From: a virus
DNA length: 64,000 nucleotides
Strand: one strand, 5' to 3'
Virus record (IMG/VR): IMGVR_UViG_3300031658_000002
Location: 1 to 64,000 of that record
Both the position numbers and the translations under genes were made by a program. Each line of letters opens with the position of its first letter. Within the stretch, counting starts at the first letter, position 1. This document shows positions 22,241 to 46,618 of the stretch, one piece after another. The notes under the pieces are model-generated. The model was not told the origin of the DNA. It searched no databases and worked only from the letters and a program-made list of their open reading frames with translations.

Positions 22241-22909
22241 TTATTTAAATGTTTTACGCATCCATAAAAGAATATAATGTGTTAATTCTTTTGCAGCAGG
22301 CTTGACATCTTCCTTGTCTGTCATAGGACCGCGTTTCCAATCTAACCATTGCATTTCAATTGCCGACAGGTGTTTATCTATAGCTTGATCATCCATAGAT
22401 TCTATGTATTCTTCGTTTATCTTACCTTCGTACATTAAATCAAACATAGTATCTTGAAGTTTAGAATCTATAAATCTACCACCTGCTTTTTCAATAGCTC
22501 TTCTTGCTTTCAATGCGTTTTTCTTAAGAACAATGAAATATCCTTTTCGTGGGCCACCCATCTTTTTTGTATATTGTGATCCTTGAGATTTTGAACCTAC
22601 CGGTCTTGCATTACCTCTTGGATCTATCACTACAAATTCTCTAGATTCAGTTAATGTACTTTCGTTCATTACTATATACTTCGCAAGTCCGTTCGTATCT
22701 TTATCTTTTATACTAAAGCCACTTAGCACTTCCCAATCAGCTACCATATCTATAAAGTCAGCCAGACCATTGACATCTTTCTTGTCAACAAGTTTGTAAA
22801 ATTCTTGCTGGTCCTGTCTGTCGTTTGGCATCCATTTTTCTATTTTGTCATGCGCTAAACTAAAGTTTGGGCCTTCATTTAAAATATCTTTGAATTTAAT
22901 ATTTGCCAT
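22241..22909 (-). CDS. Candidate internal head protein (222 residues)
   Basis: The N-terminus MANIKFKDILNE followed by GPNF matches the T4 capsid-targeting pattern: a short helix, then a cleavable (I/L)xE. Further candidate sites occur at VMNE-ST and TLTE-SR. After these comes a compact domain starting EFVVIDPRGNARPVGSKS, with a basic, beta-alpha appearance. It overlaps the stop of the 425-residue gene (TAATG) and lies between the protease and scaffold genes, the place of T4 core and internal protein genes. Function unknown. Confidence 0.75.
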   Translation of the reverse strand: MANIKFKDILNEGPNFSLAHDKIEKWMPNDRQDQQEFYKLVDKKDVNGLADFIDMVADWEVLSGFSIKDKDTNGLAKYIVMNESTLTESREFVVIDPRGNARPVGSKSQGSQYTKKMGGPRKGYFIVLKKNALKARRAIEKAGGRFIDSKLQDTMFDLMYEGKINEEYIESMDDQAIDKHLSAIEMQWLDWKRGPMTDKEDVKPAAKELTHYILLWMRKTFK

Positions 22910-25027: not shown

Positions 25028-25660
25028 TTATTTACTCCTGTTTGGTAGTGTGCATTTGCAAGTTAGATCGCAAAGCATTTCGTTAATTATATTGTTTACC
25101 TTGTCGTATTTATTTATATAAATATCATTGACAGATTCCTTAAGCGGTGCCATGAAAGCTCCATGTGTCGATGGGTTAGAGACAAAATCCCAGCATACTA
25201 ATTCAAAGTCAGATTGTACTTCGAGGGTTCCGTCCTCTGAAAGCTGCTTAACTGAACCTAAGCCTCTAGAACTGATCCCTAATTTCACACCAGCTTTAAG
25301 CAGTTCTTTTAGTATGTTACCAGAAGGTGTACCTAGTACCTCAACTGTGCCAACTAAATCATCACCTTTCCACCATATCTTTTTTATATTGTGAGAAACG
25401 TTTTGCAAATTAACTACAGATGATTCTGGATGGTCTAATTCTCCAAGTGCTCTGTTTTCTGCAATTTGTATCTTTGAATATTTGTTAGCTTCACGCATTA
25501 AGATTTCCTTAGGATATACTCTTCCGTTTTGGTTTTTCGCACCGGCTCTTTGTAGCACGCCACTTACAATAACCTTTCCGTCGTTGCTTTCCTCAGACTC
25601 TTTTATCATTTGAGGTGTTATTTCAAACGATGTATAATCTATTAGTACTTCTTTTGACAT
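25028..25660 (-). CDS. 21: Prohead maturation protease, gp21-like
   Basis: This 210-residue serine protease (T4: 212) has the U9/S78-type fold motifs NGRVYPKEIL (45-54), GELDHPES with His77, and KLGISSRGLGSV with Ser130/131, then FELVCWDFVSNPSTHGAFM with Asp158. It processes capsid, core and internal proteins after (I/L)xE sequences before DNA packaging. The gene order portal - core - protease - scaffold - capsid is as in T4. It has an AAGGAG ribosome binding site. An unusual Cys-containing tail (MLCDLTCKCTL) ends the protein. Confidence 0.93.
   Translation of the reverse strand: MSKEVLIDYTSFEITPQMIKESEESNDGKVIVSGVLQRAGAKNQNGRVYPKEILMREANKYSKIQIAENRALGELDHPESSVVNLQNVSHNIKKIWWKGDDLVGTVEVLGTPSGNILKELLKAGVKLGISSRGLGSVKQLSEDGTLEVQSDFELVCWDFVSNPSTHGAFMAPLKESVNDIYINKYDKVNNIINEMLCDLTCKCTLPNRSK
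25115..25127 (-). promoter_or_regulatory. Late-type promoter motif inside the protease gene
   Basis: The coding strand reads TGATATTTATATA within codons for NDIYIN near the protease C-terminus, 88 bases before the next ATG (25027). It would allow independent expression of the internal-protein operon. Confidence 0.5.
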
Positions 25661-30447: not shown

Positions 30448-30843
30448 TTATTTTTTGATACGTTTTTCTAGTGATCTACCACCAAAATATGCACCAATAG
30501 TTGTCATTAAAACTAACTGCAGTAAATCTGTCCACTTTTCTTCCACATTAAATGATACTGCACCTGCATCAATGAATATCATTAGTACCGTACATATTAC
30601 TAAAAATATCAATACCATAGGTCTTACATTCTTACTTAACCAAGAGTCCGAGTTCATATCAGATTTCCAACGGTCTGTTATGTTAGCCTCCATATCTGTT
30701 TCATATTTTGCTATAAGCTCTTGTATCTTTTGCTCTGCTGCTAACTTCTCTTCTTTTGAAGTTGTTAAATTGTCCAAGACACCCCCAACACTTTTAACTA
30801 ATGTTGCAGCTCCGCTTGAAAATATTTGTGTCAATATACTCAT
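30448..30843 (-). CDS. Holin-like membrane protein (GTA_holin_3TM type)
   Basis: This 131-residue protein has an N-terminal amphipathic helix and a charged coiled segment. These are followed by WLSKNVRPMVLIFLVICTVLMIFIDAGAV and KWTDLLQLVLMTTIGAYFGGRSLEKR, a layout like the 3-TM holins of gene-transfer agents. It would form the lysis pore or time lysis. It overlaps the zinc-protein gene by four bases and has an AAAGGAG ribosome binding site. No endolysin was recognised beside it. Confidence 0.7.
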   Translation of the reverse strand: MSILTQIFSSGAATLVKSVGGVLDNLTTSKEEKLAAEQKIQELIAKYETDMEANITDRWKSDMNSDSWLSKNVRPMVLIFLVICTVLMIFIDAGAVSFNVEEKWTDLLQLVLMTTIGAYFGGRSLEKRIKK

Positions 30844-31439: not shown

Positions 31440-33722
31440 TTAGAAATACATCATACCTGTGATTTGGTTTACAGGTGCAAAAGCTCCAGTTAGTTTGTAT
31501 GTACTTCCTTTATATACAAATACTAAACCTTCACTTGGCACTATAGAATCCATACCTCCGATTGAATTTAATTTATTTAATTGCTGTGCTAATCTGTTTA
31601 TCTTCTTTATATCGCCGCCTTTTCTTACGATTGATATGGCCTGCTTTATCTGCTTTCTTATATTCTGTACTGCTTTGTCTGGATTGGCTGCCAAGAAACC
31701 TTCCGCGTTTTTCAATACTTCAGCACCCAATTCAAAGAATAACTTTTCAAATGGTAACATATTCTTTTTAACTTGATCTGCATGTTTCTGCTTGTCGATA
31801 TCTATAGCTTTAGATAAAAGCTTTTCATCACCTATAGTTTTCTTATTAAGTCTGAATGACTTATCAGAAAAAGCCCACCGCTTAACAAGCCCCATCTTTA
31901 TTCTGTTATCTACACCTTTAAGATTTTTGTCAACATATTCTCCCCACCAAGCTTGATGGTATTCACCAAACGTACTTGAGTCAGACATACTAAACTTTTT
32001 CATAAGAGAGTTTAGCTTGCCTAAGAAATAGGGTTTTTTAGCAGAATAATCTTGGTGTGGATTTATCTTTAAAAACTGAGGGCCAATTATTTTAAAACTC
32101 TTCTGTACGTTTTGATTTACCTGAGCAATCATTCCCGCAAGCATCCTAGCGCCATCGGGTACTGAACCTATAGGTGTCCCATCTTTATATTTTAATACGT
32201 TGTGAAACTGTAAATGTGGTGCATCATAGTTTATTACGTTTGAAGATGCTGGGTACATGATTTCCATATTTATCCAGTTATTGCCATCATCAAATATCTT
32301 TTTAAGCTGCTTGTCGTTTAGAGACTTTATAGCTTTTGATAAATCGTTCATAGCATAGTTAAAAGCTTTTTCTATGTTTCCTCTACCAGAGAATTTTTTA
32401 GCTATTGCGCTAGAATCAACACCTCCTCGTTTTATATCACCACCATTTCTTGCAGCAAGAAGCTTTTTGTTCCATGTTATGAATAGGTTTTGGCCATCTG
32501 TTTTTTCTGTTGCAGCTGATTCCAGATTAAGCTTACCTTGTAGAGCTATATCTATTATCTGTCTAAAGTCGCCGAATGTCAAACCTTTGTCATCAAACGG
32601 ATGAGACATGTGGCCATAAGCACCACCTTCTAAAAGTAAACCTTCTTTCATTAGTTTGCCTGGCTTTGGTGCCTTAACTGGTTCTTTAGTATTTGAAGTT
32701 GAAGAAATTTCTGCACCTAAATAACTAACGAATTCGTATCCTATACTAGTAGCTATATATTTAGACCATTTAGTCCATCTATCAAAAGCAACTCTTCCTT
32801 TTTTATCTTGAAGTAAATTTGTACCTGATCTTGCTCCAGGTACTCCAACTGGCCAGTATGAAACTGCACCTGTAGGACCTCCACTCATATCTGTTTTGAA
32901 CTCAGTATCATGTTTGAAAAACTCTTCGTTACCAGTAAGATAATTAAGAACTTCCATTCCAGGATTTATATATTTCTGAAGGTTATCTCCAAATTTCTTC
33001 CATGACTTTTGATTTCCCCAATAACCTCTAGGGCCATCGTCAACAGTATCCCCTCCGGTAGTTGTCAAGTTTTCACTTAGCAGTTTTGGTATATCAAAGT
33101 GTACACAAAAGCCTTCCATTATTTCATTTAGCTTTTCAAGCTTTTGTGTTATTAAATCGTAATTTTTAGTATGACCGAATATACCTTTGAATATTTTAAC
33201 TTTCTGCTTTTTATCTAGCTGAGTATCACCTAAAGCTTTTCTTATTGCTGTTCCGCTCATCTCGCCATATCCTGGTACACTCATTGAAACATGAGGGGCT
33301 ATTATCAAATATGCGCCATCTCTATATCCAACATCAGCATTTCCTTTCCAGGGTTGAAAAAACTTTCCTTTAAGTCTACCGGCATCTTTTTCTCCAACCA
33401 TAAACACAGCTGCTGTAGTTTCAGGATCATATTTCTTTAGAATTTCTTCTGCCTTGTATGGATTCTTAACCTGAACTACTTTAGATATTCCGTGAGAATT
33501 TATTATCTTTTTCTTTTCATTGAAAGAGAATGGTGATTTTGGTAAGTCTACTTTCCCACTCGTTCCAACATATGCGTCTTTGAATTTTGACTGTAGCCAT
33601 TTATATGCTTTTGCGTGATGTGCTCCCATAGGTTGAAACCTACCAGGGTATATTGCAACAACAGTCTTTATCTTTGAATCTTCAGCTATTATTTGTTCTG
33701 CTAACCAGTTTCCTAAACTCAT
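31440..33722 (-). CDS. NMNAT-like adenylyltransferase fused to a KxDG nucleotidyltransferase (RNA-ligase-like), candidate virion cargo
   Basis: This 760-residue protein has two catalytic units. Residues about 19-200 are a cytidylyltransferase/NMNAT fold with YPGRFQPMGAHHAK (the HxGH motif altered to GAHH) and SGTAIR (156-161). Residues about 365-700 carry LLLEGGAYGHMSHPFD, then TEKTDGQNL, the covalent-lysine KxDG motif (Lys407). They also have NWINMEIMYPAS and LQFHNVLKY, like motif III of ligases. The N-terminus MSLGNWLAEQIIAE-DSK resembles a capsid-targeting leader, and LLLE-GG between the domains is a second candidate cleavage site. I chose ATG 33722 (ATGA overlap with the kinase) over an ATG at 33755. 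Roles in NAD metabolism or RNA/DNA repair are inferred. Confidence 0.75.
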   Translation of the reverse strand: MSLGNWLAEQIIAEDSKIKTVVAIYPGRFQPMGAHHAKAYKWLQSKFKDAYVGTSGKVDLPKSPFSFNEKKKIINSHGISKVVQVKNPYKAEEILKKYDPETTAAVFMVGEKDAGRLKGKFFQPWKGNADVGYRDGAYLIIAPHVSMSVPGYGEMSGTAIRKALGDTQLDKKQKVKIFKGIFGHTKNYDLITQKLEKLNEIMEGFCVHFDIPKLLSENLTTTGGDTVDDGPRGYWGNQKSWKKFGDNLQKYINPGMEVLNYLTGNEEFFKHDTEFKTDMSGGPTGAVSYWPVGVPGARSGTNLLQDKKGRVAFDRWTKWSKYIATSIGYEFVSYLGAEISSTSNTKEPVKAPKPGKLMKEGLLLEGGAYGHMSHPFDDKGLTFGDFRQIIDIALQGKLNLESAATEKTDGQNLFITWNKKLLAARNGGDIKRGGVDSSAIAKKFSGRGNIEKAFNYAMNDLSKAIKSLNDKQLKKIFDDGNNWINMEIMYPASSNVINYDAPHLQFHNVLKYKDGTPIGSVPDGARMLAGMIAQVNQNVQKSFKIIGPQFLKINPHQDYSAKKPYFLGKLNSLMKKFSMSDSSTFGEYHQAWWGEYVDKNLKGVDNRIKMGLVKRWAFSDKSFRLNKKTIGDEKLLSKAIDIDKQKHADQVKKNMLPFEKLFFELGAEVLKNAEGFLAANPDKAVQNIRKQIKQAISIVRKGGDIKKINRLAQQLNKLNSIGGMDSIVPSEGLVFVYKGSTYKLTGAFAPVNQITGMMYF

Positions 33723-34420
33723 GATTTTCTCAACTTTAATTCTTTTTCTATCCACTTCTTTGCAATGTGGTTTTGTATCGGTCGACTTACAAATTCTCTA
33801 GCATTTGACTTTACAACTTTTTCGAAATCTCTGTATTCTGAATTATCTACAACCAACATATTGCTTGCACCAAACAAAGCTTGGAATTTACCCATGTTGT
33901 TATTTACAGCTTGCCATGATTTTTTTACCAACTCAGATGGAAGTGTTCTCTCTCTATTTTGATTTCTTTCAAGAGCAACGTCTAAGTCTGTGTTTACAAA
34001 AACCATAAAACAATCGTAGCCTGCTGATTCTAGTTTTTTCTTTTGGTCTGCTATATTAGGATAGTTCTTACCAGTACCATCAATAAGAAGTCCGAGCCTT
34101 CCATTGATATAATTTTTAAGTGCAGCGTCTCTAGCCTTTTTACTCTTTGCTCTAAGTAACATCGCTTGTTCGTACTCATCTGGATTTAATTTGGCTATGT
34201 CTTTGCTCAAACCTTTCATCTGTAAGTATGTTTCAAAGTACTTGTCGCTGTTGACGGCTTTCAGTCCCTGTGCAGAAACGAAAGGCATTTTCTCTGGCAT
34301 TCCAAATAATGAAGATGCAGCAAATGATTTACCACTCCCTGGTCCACCGGCTGTAAACACAGCTTTGAATATACCCGGATCGTATACCCCTTCAATCAAT
34401 ATGTCTGTTAACTTTATCAC
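33719..34420 (-). CDS. P-loop kinase (zeta-toxin/polynucleotide-kinase-like), candidate virion cargo
   Basis: This 233-residue protein has Walker A GGPGSGKS (25-32), a DGTGKNY block after strand LLIDG (about 110-119), and NRERTLP, like the lid arginines of small-molecule and nucleic-acid kinases. The start is GTG 34420 with GGAG six bases upstream. The N-terminus MIKLTDILIE-GVYD matches the capsid-targeting pattern seen in T4 internal proteins. It overlaps the ligase fusion (ATGA), which suggests joint action, perhaps end-healing before ligation. The substrate is not determinable here. Confidence 0.75.
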   Translation of the reverse strand: MIKLTDILIEGVYDPGIFKAVFTAGGPGSGKSFAASSLFGMPEKMPFVSAQGLKAVNSDKYFETYLQMKGLSKDIAKLNPDEYEQAMLLRAKSKKARDAALKNYINGRLGLLIDGTGKNYPNIADQKKKLESAGYDCFMVFVNTDLDVALERNQNRERTLPSELVKKSWQAVNNNMGKFQALFGASNMLVVDNSEYRDFEKVVKSNAREFVSRPIQNHIAKKWIEKELKLRKS

Positions 34421-43471: not shown

Positions 43472-46400
43472 CTACACAATAACCTTACTCAATCCTTTAG
43501 TTATGTTGATCTCTACTAGACCATCAACCATATCTTTCATGATATCTATGTGAGATATTATCATTACAAAGTCAAATTCTGCTTTAAGATAATCAAACAA
43601 CATAGACATAGAGTTTATATTCTCTGAATCTAAATTACCAAAGCCTTCGTCAACTGCCAAGAAATTAGGACGTGGTAAGTTAGATATTTTTATAAGCGCT
43701 ACCCGTATTGCTAAAGAACTTATAAACTTCTCCATACCCGAAGTAAGTTCTAAAGGCCATCTGTCTTCTTCTCCATATTTTATATAACTTAATATATTTT
43801 TGCCATCTACATCGAACTCTATTTCGAAGTCAACTATTTGAGATAAAGTATTATTTATCTCCTCTTCAAGATATGGCAACGTCTCAGCTATTATCTCGTA
43901 AGGTATACCGTCACGTTTAATTGCATCTAAATAAAACTCATATGACTTCAGCTTTAACTCCAACTCGTGTGCATCGCTTATAGTACTTGTTATATTAGAT
44001 ATGTTTTGAGTAGTTATGGAGACGTTACTGTATGCTTTCTGTATATCGTTTTGTACTTCGTCCAATTCTACTTTTATATTTGCTTTTTCTATTTCTAGAT
44101 TGTCTATAGATGCGTTTATCCGTTCATTAGCCTTGATAGTTTCCTTGTTTCTATGATACTTCTCTATATCCTTATCTATACCCTTTAGTTCAGTTTTCTT
44201 GGCGCGTAGGTCAGACTTTCTCTGCTCCGATTTGATTATAATTTCCGATTCATATTGGCTAATAGTCAACTTTTCACTTTCTAGTTCTCTATATATATTT
44301 ATTAGATTTTCAACCTCAGTCTTCTCCAGTAACACACTATCTGATATTGATCTGTCGCTTAAAAGCTTGTTAACAATAATCTTGTCTTCTTTAAGTAAGT
44401 CTTTTGCTTGCATTGCAGATTTTACAAATTCATTGTCGCAGCAATAATTACAGGCAGGGTCGTACTCGTGCACATCAAGTTTTGATATCAAGTCTAGCTT
44501 GTTTCTTACGCTTACCTTTTTAACTTCTATTTCTCTTACCAATCTAGAGTTATTATCTTTTTCTATATCAAGTACTGCCTTTTTAGCTACAAGATCTTTT
44601 ACATCTATCTTTGACATTTTTAGATTTATCTCAGTTGACTTTTTCTTATTAACCTTTGCGTACTCTTTGTATTTGTTTAACTTGTAGTTATATGCACTTA
44701 TGGTTTCCTCGGCAAAACTTTTCACTCTTTCTAACTTTTCAATATTATCTGATGTAGATATATTTTTAAGCTCCTTGACTTTGGTGTGTATACTTTTCTC
44801 TTTATCTGAATATCGTTTCTGTATAGTATTCTTGTCTCCGTCTAACTCTGAGTATACTTTGCTGTATCTTTTCTGATTCTCTTCTTCGTCTATTAGCTGT
44901 TGAGAGTAGTCTGTCTTTCCAAAATTTCTAAGAAGTATCTGCACCTCCTTTATCTCCTCATTTGCTAGATTATAAAGCTCTTCAAATACAGTTATATCTA
45001 AGAATTGAGAAAGAAGATCTTTCTTCTCCGTCTGTGACTGATCAATAAATCCAGTACTATTGTTTTGTACTGACATTGATGTTAACACAAAGTCATTATA
45101 TAAACCTAGATAACCTCTTATATTTTTATCAGTCTGAGTTCTCTGCTCTCCATTTAAAGATATTATCGTATCGTCTTCACCTATCATCCAGAAATTAACG
45201 TCAACTCTAACGTGGCCCTTTTTTTCTTTAACACCTTTTCTTTCTATGAAATATTGTATACCGTCTATCTCAAAGTTAAGCTTACATGAAAAATTCTTTT
45301 TCTTATTGTTCAGTACATCAGATGCGGATTTAGTTCTAGAGCACTTATGGAAAGCGCAAAACATTAGTGCATCAAGTATTGCAGACTTCCCTGCGTGGTT
45401 GGGAGCAAATACGCCTACGACATCTCTAAGTTTGCTAAAGTCTATTACATTGTCTTCACCATAACTGAACATGTTAGAAAATTCAAACGTTTTAGGCAGC
45501 CACCTAACACCTCTAGATATTTCTATTGCTGAAAGATGTTTATTAAGTTCAGTGTTTATATTTTTTATTCTGCGTATAGTCTCAGAGTCAGCTGAATGAT
45601 TTGTTCCTATGTATTCTTCAAGCAATTCGTTTTGATATTGTACATCTCTTATATCTCTTGTTAACGAGCGTGTTGTTTTATTCTGAGCATTGAGTTTGTC
45701 GTTTTTTATTATAACTATGTCTGTAGTTTTACATTTGCATTTTATTTCTTTTATTATATCTTTCAGCTGAGCCCTTGTTGTGTTGTTAGTACGTATTCTT
45801 ACTCTAGGATATTTTGGTATGCTGTCTATATTTGGCAGTATGCCTTCGCTGACGTTTATAGTGTAAAACCCATGCACATTTTCAAAGTTCCTGAATTCAG
45901 CTTTTCTTTTCTCTACATCCCATATAGCACAACCGTGGTTATCAAACGATTCTCCAAAATTCTGCTGTATTAAAGACCCTACCTGGAGTATTGTTTCATC
46001 TGTATCGTAAAACTGTCTCTTGTGTATATCTCCAAGCATAGTCATATCATAGCCATCAAACATAGATGATTTTAAACTATCACTTTCAACTTTATATCCT
46101 GCATCAGTGTATGACATATCAAGTGCTCCGTGGAAAAGAGCAACTTTAGTCTCACCTTCAAAAGAATTAGATTTTATAAAAGTCTTCGGGTCGTCGAAAA
46201 TACTAAACACTGCAAAGTGAGTGTCGGCTATTAAATGCACTGCAGAGTCTTTAAGATAGTGAAGCTGTGGGTGGTTTAAAGATTCAATCATCGGAGTAAG
46301 AGAGTCAAGCCTAGACGAGTTATTTAGATTTGCATCGTGATTACCAGTTATAACTATCGTATGCCGTCTGTCTGCTAGATTTTTTAAAAACTCGCACGTT

Positions 46401-46618
46401 AGCTTTATAAGCTCAGGTGATATATCAGTCTTACTATGTACGACGTCGCCTCCTACATATACTATTGAGTTTTTAGGAAGATCGTCAACTTCTTTATACA
46501 GCTGTCTAAATACTTTTCTATATTCCTTATGTCTCTGATAATTTCTTATGTGTATATCAGCAACATGCAATACTTTTTCTAATTTGTTAAATCCTACATC
46601 AATCTTGTTAAAGTCCAA
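43472..46618 (-). CDS. Fused Mre11-Rad50 recombination nuclease (gp47-gp46 in one chain)
   Basis: Processes DNA ends for recombination-dependent replication. Of 1048 residues, 1-340 are an Mre11/SbcD phosphoesterase with HVADIHI (Asp21, His23), VGGDVVH (Asp58), TGNHD (His94, Asp95), LFHG and LGDIH. Residues 380-1048 are Rad50/SbcC, with Walker A FAPNHAGKSA (404-413), long coiled coils, a zinc hook CNYC (723-726), LTSGMEKFISSLAIRVAL and Walker B FLAVDEGFGNLD near the end. T4 encodes these as separate genes 47 and 46. The start is TTG 46618 with GGAG seven bases upstream, overlapping the primase end by 11 bases. No frameshift or stop separates the halves. Confidence 0.93.
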   Translation of the reverse strand: MDFNKIDVGFNKLEKVLHVADIHIRNYQRHKEYRKVFRQLYKEVDDLPKNSIVYVGGDVVHSKTDISPELIKLTCEFLKNLADRRHTIVITGNHDANLNNSSRLDSLTPMIESLNHPQLHYLKDSAVHLIADTHFAVFSIFDDPKTFIKSNSFEGETKVALFHGALDMSYTDAGYKVESDSLKSSMFDGYDMTMLGDIHKRQFYDTDETILQVGSLIQQNFGESFDNHGCAIWDVEKRKAEFRNFENVHGFYTINVSEGILPNIDSIPKYPRVRIRTNNTTRAQLKDIIKEIKCKCKTTDIVIIKNDKLNAQNKTTRSLTRDIRDVQYQNELLEEYIGTNHSADSETIRRIKNINTELNKHLSAIEISRGVRWLPKTFEFSNMFSYGEDNVIDFSKLRDVVGVFAPNHAGKSAILDALMFCAFHKCSRTKSASDVLNNKKKNFSCKLNFEIDGIQYFIERKGVKEKKGHVRVDVNFWMIGEDDTIISLNGEQRTQTDKNIRGYLGLYNDFVLTSMSVQNNSTGFIDQSQTEKKDLLSQFLDITVFEELYNLANEEIKEVQILLRNFGKTDYSQQLIDEEENQKRYSKVYSELDGDKNTIQKRYSDKEKSIHTKVKELKNISTSDNIEKLERVKSFAEETISAYNYKLNKYKEYAKVNKKKSTEINLKMSKIDVKDLVAKKAVLDIEKDNNSRLVREIEVKKVSVRNKLDLISKLDVHEYDPACNYCCDNEFVKSAMQAKDLLKEDKIIVNKLLSDRSISDSVLLEKTEVENLINIYRELESEKLTISQYESEIIIKSEQRKSDLRAKKTELKGIDKDIEKYHRNKETIKANERINASIDNLEIEKANIKVELDEVQNDIQKAYSNVSITTQNISNITSTISDAHELELKLKSYEFYLDAIKRDGIPYEIIAETLPYLEEEINNTLSQIVDFEIEFDVDGKNILSYIKYGEEDRWPLELTSGMEKFISSLAIRVALIKISNLPRPNFLAVDEGFGNLDSENINSMSMLFDYLKAEFDFVMIISHIDIMKDMVDGLVEINITKGLSKVIV

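Follow-up and report, generated by a model that had tools for sequence, protein, structure and literature searches.

Internal head proteins, polyvalent proteins and phage RNA repair are already known. In phage T4, the gp21 protease cuts after L/I-x-E and a 10-residue capsid-targeting leader suffices for packaging (PMC9026906), RNA repair by phages has been described (PMC7824862), and for polyvalent proteins a release by embedded peptidases has been described (PMC5512222). In the open-access literature, no paper was found on enzyme polyproteins diced by a prohead protease or on packaged kinase-ligase pairs in T4-like phages.

The window, meaning the whole stretch of DNA analysed, is 64,000 bases long, out of 78,904 in the virus record, and carries the structural block of a marine T4-like phage. 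Its long open reading frames (ORFs) lie on the minus strand, and the block contains a piece of DNA polymerase, the major capsid protein (phrog_138), the portal, the terminase large subunit (TerL), and sheath and wedge genes. Inside this block, upstream of the terminase and adjoining TerL, sit a kinase gene and a gene for a multi-module fusion protein. Their features are as follows, with a slash marking each predicted cut.

33719..34420 (-), P-loop kinase, polynucleotide-kinase-like, 233 aa, GTG start
34391..34420 (-), predicted capsid-targeting leader of the kinase, VIKLTDILIE (GTG read as M), expected cut after Glu10 (LIE/G)
34325..34348 (-), Walker A motif GGPGSGKS, residues 25-32, conserved in the alignment of kinase relatives
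31440..33722 (-), NMNAT-middle-ligase fusion, 760 aa from ATG 33722
33681..33722 (-), fusion leader MSLGNWLAEQIIAE, expected cut after IIAE
33072..33680 (-), NMNAT-fold nucleotidylyltransferase module, with GRFQPMGAHH at 33615-33644 and SGTAIR at 33240-33257
33072..33074 (-), predicted cut LLSE/N (Glu228), in a low-confidence model segment (217-237)
32628..33071 (-), middle module 'VDDGP...', conserved in the alignment of NMNAT plus middle modules, low model confidence
32628..32630 (-), predicted cut LLLE/GG (Glu376)
31440..32627 (-), ligase-like module, 395 aa, AF2 pLDDT 81.5
ligase-module motifs (-): EKTDG 32493-32507, AARN 32445-32456, NMEIMYP 32250-32270, SEGLVF 31518-31535, YKLTG 31485-31499
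25028..25660 (-), prohead protease of gp21 type, the candidate cutter, phrog_207 at E 3.8e-57
22241..22909 (-), protein of 222 aa in the head block, leader of similar type MANIKFKDILNE/G, no PHROG match

An alternative start at GTG 33755 would give a fusion of 771 aa; ATG 33722 is the likelier start, as it makes an ATGA overlap with the kinase stop. This overlap, reported in the first-pass annotation of the sequence, was confirmed, and the same ATGA occurs at the kinase stops of 21 of 23 relatives. Our best overall reading, to which we assign a probability of about 0.5, is that the two genes encode head-packaged, prohead-cut cargo that performs T4-like RNA end repair early in infection. Elsewhere in the window, a single 1048-aa ORF (43472-46618) joins SbcD-like and SbcC-like parts, and a holin-like protein (30448-30843; phrog_3427, 2e-29; GTA_holin_3TM) adjoins the terminase. 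Rfam and tRNA scans of the 64,000-base window were empty, and PADLOC returned no defence-family match.

The kinase had been recognized as a P-loop enzyme from its GGPGSGKS, and this is borne out by Pfam, in which Zeta_toxin is the best match (1.4e-8) and AAA_33 also matches (2e-6), and by a profile match to T4 Pnk; among PHROGs it matches phrog_12810 at 2e-39. Comparison by hhalign of T4 Pnk with a 23-relative kinase alignment gave an E of 1.3e-5 over 151 columns, with the Walker A motif, catalytic Asp and RNxxR lid of T4 Pnk in register. Walker A, D59, R152-N153 and R156 are invariant in the kinase alignment, and from their positions against T4 Pnk we take D59, R152, N153 and R156 to correspond to its Asp and RNxxR lid. 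Structures in the PDB matched by the kinase profile (hmmsearch) include seryl-tRNA(Sec) kinase (PSTK), adenylate kinase, zeta toxin, 4mde, 4gp6, T4 Pnk and others; 4mde and 4gp6, which carry the PDB name 'metallophosphoesterase', are presumably the Clostridium Pnkp kinase domain. The NadR kinase domain, by comparison, aligns at the Walker motif alone, over 25 columns, and as judged by alignment T4 Pnk appears the closest to the phage kinase of the two. A 5'-OH RNA kinase activity is predicted for this Pnk-like enzyme.

The nucleotidylyltransferase fold of the NMNAT module is established. The module profile finds the archaeal NMNAT 1f9a at 1.7e-4 and likewise NadM 2qjt, NMNAT being the nearest sequence family. 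Structure prediction, which the first-pass annotation had proposed as a check on both halves of the fusion, gave a model with pLDDT of about 80-92 over residues 20-200, whose Foldseek matches are the nucleotidylyltransferases PPAT, NadM and NMNAT (E about 1e-5, prob 1.0). The NMNAT fold named in that annotation from GRFQP and SGTxIR is therefore backed by both profile and Foldseek. Both motifs are indeed present, the latter as SGTAIR, but the canonical HxGH is not found, as GRFQP-M-G-A-H-H replaces it in the clade of this phage (GxHH), while other relatives have HKGH or HSGH. The second His and SGTxxR are invariant across relatives of the module. The NMNAT module has no evident part in RNA sealing.

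The ligase half represents a family for which sequence searches of Pfam, PHROGs, NCBIfam and the PDB gave no convincing match. EKTDG and EGLVF were found in the fusion as stated earlier, and the placing of a ligase lysine in TEKTDGQNL is supported: an alignment of 19 relatives, the most distant at 23-24% identity, has 26 invariant columns, with E41, K42, D44 and G45, R60, E122, E366 and G367, and K378 at the expected places of motifs I, Ia, III, IV and V. The nine best PDB matches of the AF2 model (pLDDT 81.5, pTM 0.75) all belong to the covalent nucleotidyltransferase superfamily (T4 Rnl1 three times, fungal tRNA ligase (Trl1) twice, T4 Rnl2 three times, and T7 DNA ligase), although none was better than E 0.03 and none reached 1e-3. 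In BFVD, members of its own family come first, and after them several proteins that are unnamed or named as cytidyltransferases, together with many RNA ligases. Beyond the family itself, the fold matches are mostly RNA ligases, a weak but consistent pointer. Membership of the T4 Rnl1 family by sequence profile was considered and rejected, with no Pfam match; an hhalign comparison placed the motif I and motif III pairs in register without being significant, and it was not used as evidence of membership because block-shuffled profiles reached its score in 13 of 60 cases. Kinship to T4 gp30 or to the cyanophage KWDG family was likewise not significant by hhalign. From the invariant motifs, the fold matches and the non-significant Rnl1 profile comparison, we regard the module as likely a member of the ligase superfamily, and its model as suggestive of an Rnl1-like enzyme, not of an Rnl1-family member. 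Low confidence around LLLE in this model was not taken as disorder because the alignment there had one row.

In order to evaluate the proposed cut sites, relatives were made non-redundant at 85% identity, and random windows in the same proteins served as background; counts of leader-like sites among the window ORFs alone were not discriminating, and these comparative counts were used instead. Immediately ahead of the kinase (distance 0), the motif [LIVM]xE is present in 21 of 22 non-redundant relatives. For the NMNAT domain it stands no more than 14 residues away in 30 of 31, and for the middle module no more than 26 residues upstream in all 46; at the ligase, 42 of 51 have it ahead of the module, and the nine exceptions read LLLM/GG. 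The middle residue varies freely. As 82-100% of relatives carry the motif at each junction against a background of 12-23%, these sites are not a product of chance, and the suggestion that both proteins start with candidate gp21 sites is well supported. The earlier annotation had missed LLSE/N at residue 228, where the Glu is invariant in the alignment of NMNAT plus middle modules. It had also proposed that LLLE/GG separates the two catalytic halves. As a boundary this stands, yet the site is not universal because the junction is [LI]xE/GG in 107 of 134 relatives and LLLM/GG in the other 27. Those 27 loci (L099-L153) form a clade, often reading NGKELLLMGG, in which the junction may be uncut or the protease may differ. 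Freshwater and jumbo-phage relatives have a free-standing ligase ORF, whose leader ends at the same place (KE/GG or LE/GG), such as MIRLHKILNEVLLKE/GG (L046 and others) and MKFLKSYEEFLNENLILE/GG (L076), and these separate ORFs offer the clearest support that LLLE/GG is probably a real boundary. The NMNAT model has low confidence around both internal sites, which we count as compatible with cutting and no further because the alignment there is thin.

The leader is portable. A scan of IMG/VR for DNA encoding MIKLxDILxE returned at least 120 stretches with at least 150 leader-bearing ORFs (of 60 aa or more), which fall into at least 65 unrelated clusters once the leader is removed. Among the matches listed, 130 of 149 stand at an ORF start, and at least 25 stretches have two or more matches, sometimes two to three per contig (L204, L205, L206-L324). 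Control motifs behaved differently: with Gln in place of Glu, 24 stretches were found, and with Asp 37, none of either set having two matches, and the control matches began an ORF of at least 60 aa in 12 of 24 (Gln) and 9 of 35 (Asp) cases. Leader-tagged proteins include one Nudix hydrolase and one cell-wall hydrolase. The distribution of MIKLxDILxE looks as that of a packaging tag should, and we infer that it works as one. We lean slightly towards a general cargo-loading code in T4-like phages of natural waters, made of a portable leader of about 10 residues and LxE sites between modules. Under such a code, which we hold to be somewhat better than an even bet, any enzyme could be loaded before injection, alone or as a polyprotein diced by the prohead protease, and the RNA-repair-like trio would be one conserved load.

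The kinase, NMNAT and ligase modules are linked beyond this genome, and Microcystis phage Mel-JY01 is an isolate that has the fusion. At 62 assessable NMNAT loci, a kinase ORF lies upstream in 22, kinase, NMNAT and ligase are fused in one ORF in 10, and a kinase is absent upstream in 30. Nine contigs without an upstream kinase were searched. The two largest of them, at 170 and 145 kb, have the kinase gene at another place, with a MIKL.DIL.E leader and beside other ORFs with such a leader; the seven without any kinase are shorter fragments. One relative has a canonical Rnl1 besides the ligase-like module. No 3'-phosphatase was seen beside the kinase-fusion pair, and a search of eight relatives, whose records are possibly incomplete, yielded no 2H phosphoesterase. 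Within the reach of sequence comparison, the leaders, module boundaries, catalytic motifs, NMNAT fold and linkage can be regarded as established.

Several relatives contain further domains. In L135 (2326-7221), L044 (435-3926) and L049 (3087-6419), VDE/C or LDE/C is followed by I(A/I)(I/V)AK..GKNRDRNY, which by eye is Ntn-hydrolase-like, and cutting by the prohead protease there would make the Cys nucleophile the N-terminus. The polyprotein at L096 1450-5058 has a Zn_protease-family domain (PF05618, 4.5e-7) and a nucleotidyltransferase-like GSISNYNWSKFSDVDLHL, that at L131 2136-6914 an HExxH segment, and that at L119 642-5183 a ParB-like segment. Two contigs filed as rumen Firmicutes MAGs (L195, 410 kb; L196, 400 kb) look like jumbo phages. 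Their ligase relatives, 23-26% identical, lie among several ORFs whose leaders have the form MKSL..Y, and one of these ORFs encodes a HAD-family hydrolase (PF00702, 1.6e-7). In Agrobacterium phage Atu_ph07 (L005 7275-9611), a fusion joins a domain that by eye is ADP-ribosyltransferase-like to the kinase, which comes second and is preceded by VTE/G; the ADP-ribosyltransferase-like domain occurs in several copies upstream.

A parallel case is seen in Pelagibacter phage HTVC008M and in cyanophages. HTVC008M, which shares the kinase family with Methylophilales phage Melnitz, has consecutive genes for a KWDG ligase-like protein, a short protein, a kinase and an NMNAT-like protein. Relatives of the KWDG protein occur in 469 phage records, mostly cyanophages, and in the phages looked at the gene stands beside a 'cytidyltransferase' gene, phrog_455 spanning both. 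The cyanophage cluster T4-GC_71 (L002 8260-9492; L197-L201), annotated as hypothetical, conserves KWDG, EG[YF]V and K[LF]VxR; it too probably belongs to the ligase superfamily. NMNAT-like proteins of the cyanophage type have leaders such as MKSFLQFLKE/A (S-SCSM1) and MKKFSDFLSE/A; those of Syn1 and S-CAM3 lack such leaders. The S-SCSM1 protein was detected in virions by mass spectrometry, for which its authors allow carry-over after CsCl purification (PMC9602691), and a cytidylyltransferase is present in S-CREM2 virions (PMC10665884).

Taken together with the leader statistics, the finding that S-SCSM1 virions contain an NMNAT-like protein bearing a leader of this kind supports the earlier proposal of virion delivery, and a gp21 homologue is encoded in the same block as the kinase and fusion. 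Judging by their leaders and junctions, the two proteins are probably packaged into the head and cut. The short N-terminal leaders ending in [L/I]xE would send both into the prohead core, where the gp21-type protease would trim the leaders and cut the fusion at IIAE/D, LLSE/N and LLLE/GG, yielding an NMNAT-fold enzyme, a small middle module and a ligase. Because the enzymes carry head-packaging tags and cut sites, the phage probably injects this repair kit with its DNA. The injected kinase would then phosphorylate the 5'-OH ends of RNA, which the ligase would seal once its EKTDG lysine is adenylated. T4 Pnk and Rnl1 treat tRNA cut by the host in this way, but here no gene expression would have to be awaited; the NMNAT-fold module would contribute a nucleotidyl transfer. 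The ligase fold, packaging, cutting, injection and RNA sealing are all what we infer from these data. RNA end repair by the kinase and ligase after injection is the more tentative part, rated slightly short of even. Such a role had been suggested for the pair and is made plausible by the Pnk-like kinase, the Rnl1-like model and the fusions, with the caveat that the Rnl1 profile match is no better than shuffles. Countering host defence from the first minute of infection might follow.

A role in NAD supply had been suggested as well, in which the NMNAT module would make NAD+ from NMN and the kinase NMN from nicotinamide riboside, as in NadR, offsetting NAD-depleting defence early. NMNAT is the closest sequence family, NadR joins a P-loop kinase to an NMNAT, and virions of cyanophages contain NMNAT-like proteins (PMC9602691, PMC10665884), all of which favours the idea. 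The kinase, on the other hand, aligns with T4 Pnk over 151 columns and with NadR over just the 25 at the Walker motif, and the ligase module would be left unexplained. We consider NAD supply unlikely because NadV and Nudix were not found in eight relatives, possibly incomplete, and every surveyed phage with NadM also has NadV (PMC9503650); it is less likely than RNA repair.

Instead of repairing RNA, the packaged and cut enzymes could serve to take over the host by acting on its nucleic acids, nucleotides or proteins, for example by nucleotidylating or phosphorylating a host target. T4 packages Alt, a modifier of host RNA polymerase according to database annotation, the relatives carry non-repair modules, with the leader also tagging Nudix and cell-wall hydrolase proteins, and the best Pfam match of the kinase is Zeta toxin. 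This host-directed action seems improbable given that fusion links a Pnk-like kinase to a ligase whose fold matches, beyond its own family, are mostly RNA ligases. It is far less probable still that the modules are kept in the head as core fillers with their enzyme activity lost: the genes do adjoin TerL in the structural block and HxGH is altered to GxHH in the clade of this phage, but the catalytic motifs of kinase and ligase stay unchanged among widely diverged relatives, and the second His and SGTxxR of the NMNAT module are invariant too.

If head-packaged RNA repair is the correct reading, many T4-like phages inject a ready enzyme set, kinase-ligase pair included, before any gene is read, and could answer RNA-cutting defences faster than the expressed system of T4. 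The leader in turn would be a sequence rule predicting the head cargo of uncultured phages, making injected contents testable at large scale.

Finally, the locus can be set against the described systems. It resembles polyvalent proteins (PMC5512222) in being multi-domain, enzyme-rich, predicted to be co-injected with DNA and encoded among virion genes, and it would differ in a proposed release via prohead-protease sites, in its occurrence in T4-like phages, and in its RNA-ligase and kinase modules. Phage NAD pathways (NadM-NadV and NARP) share a phage NMNAT-fold enzyme in the NadM-NadV case, whereas here a ligase and a Pnk-like kinase are found instead of NadV and Nudix. The cyanophage T4-GC_71 and T4-GC_190 (cytidyltransferase) pair of phrog_455 likewise has a KWDG ligase-like protein beside or fused with an NMNAT-like one, several NMNAT-like members having LxE leaders and one having been found in virions; it belongs to other subfamilies in the opposite order, and a kinase beside the pair was seen in HTVC008M only. 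T4 tRNA repair by Pnk and Rnl1 is alike in its Pnk-like kinase, Rnl1-like ligase model and linked modules, while here an NMNAT module is added, a 3'-phosphatase is unseen and the ligase forms a sequence family of its own; to our knowledge the T4 pair is not head-packaged. With the T4 internal proteins (IPI-III, Alt) the locus shares a short leader ending in [LI]xE, a gp21-type protease and unrelated mature parts behind one leader, but here a single chain strings together several enzyme modules, each preceded by a predicted cut site, and the cargo is a kinase, an NMNAT and a ligase.
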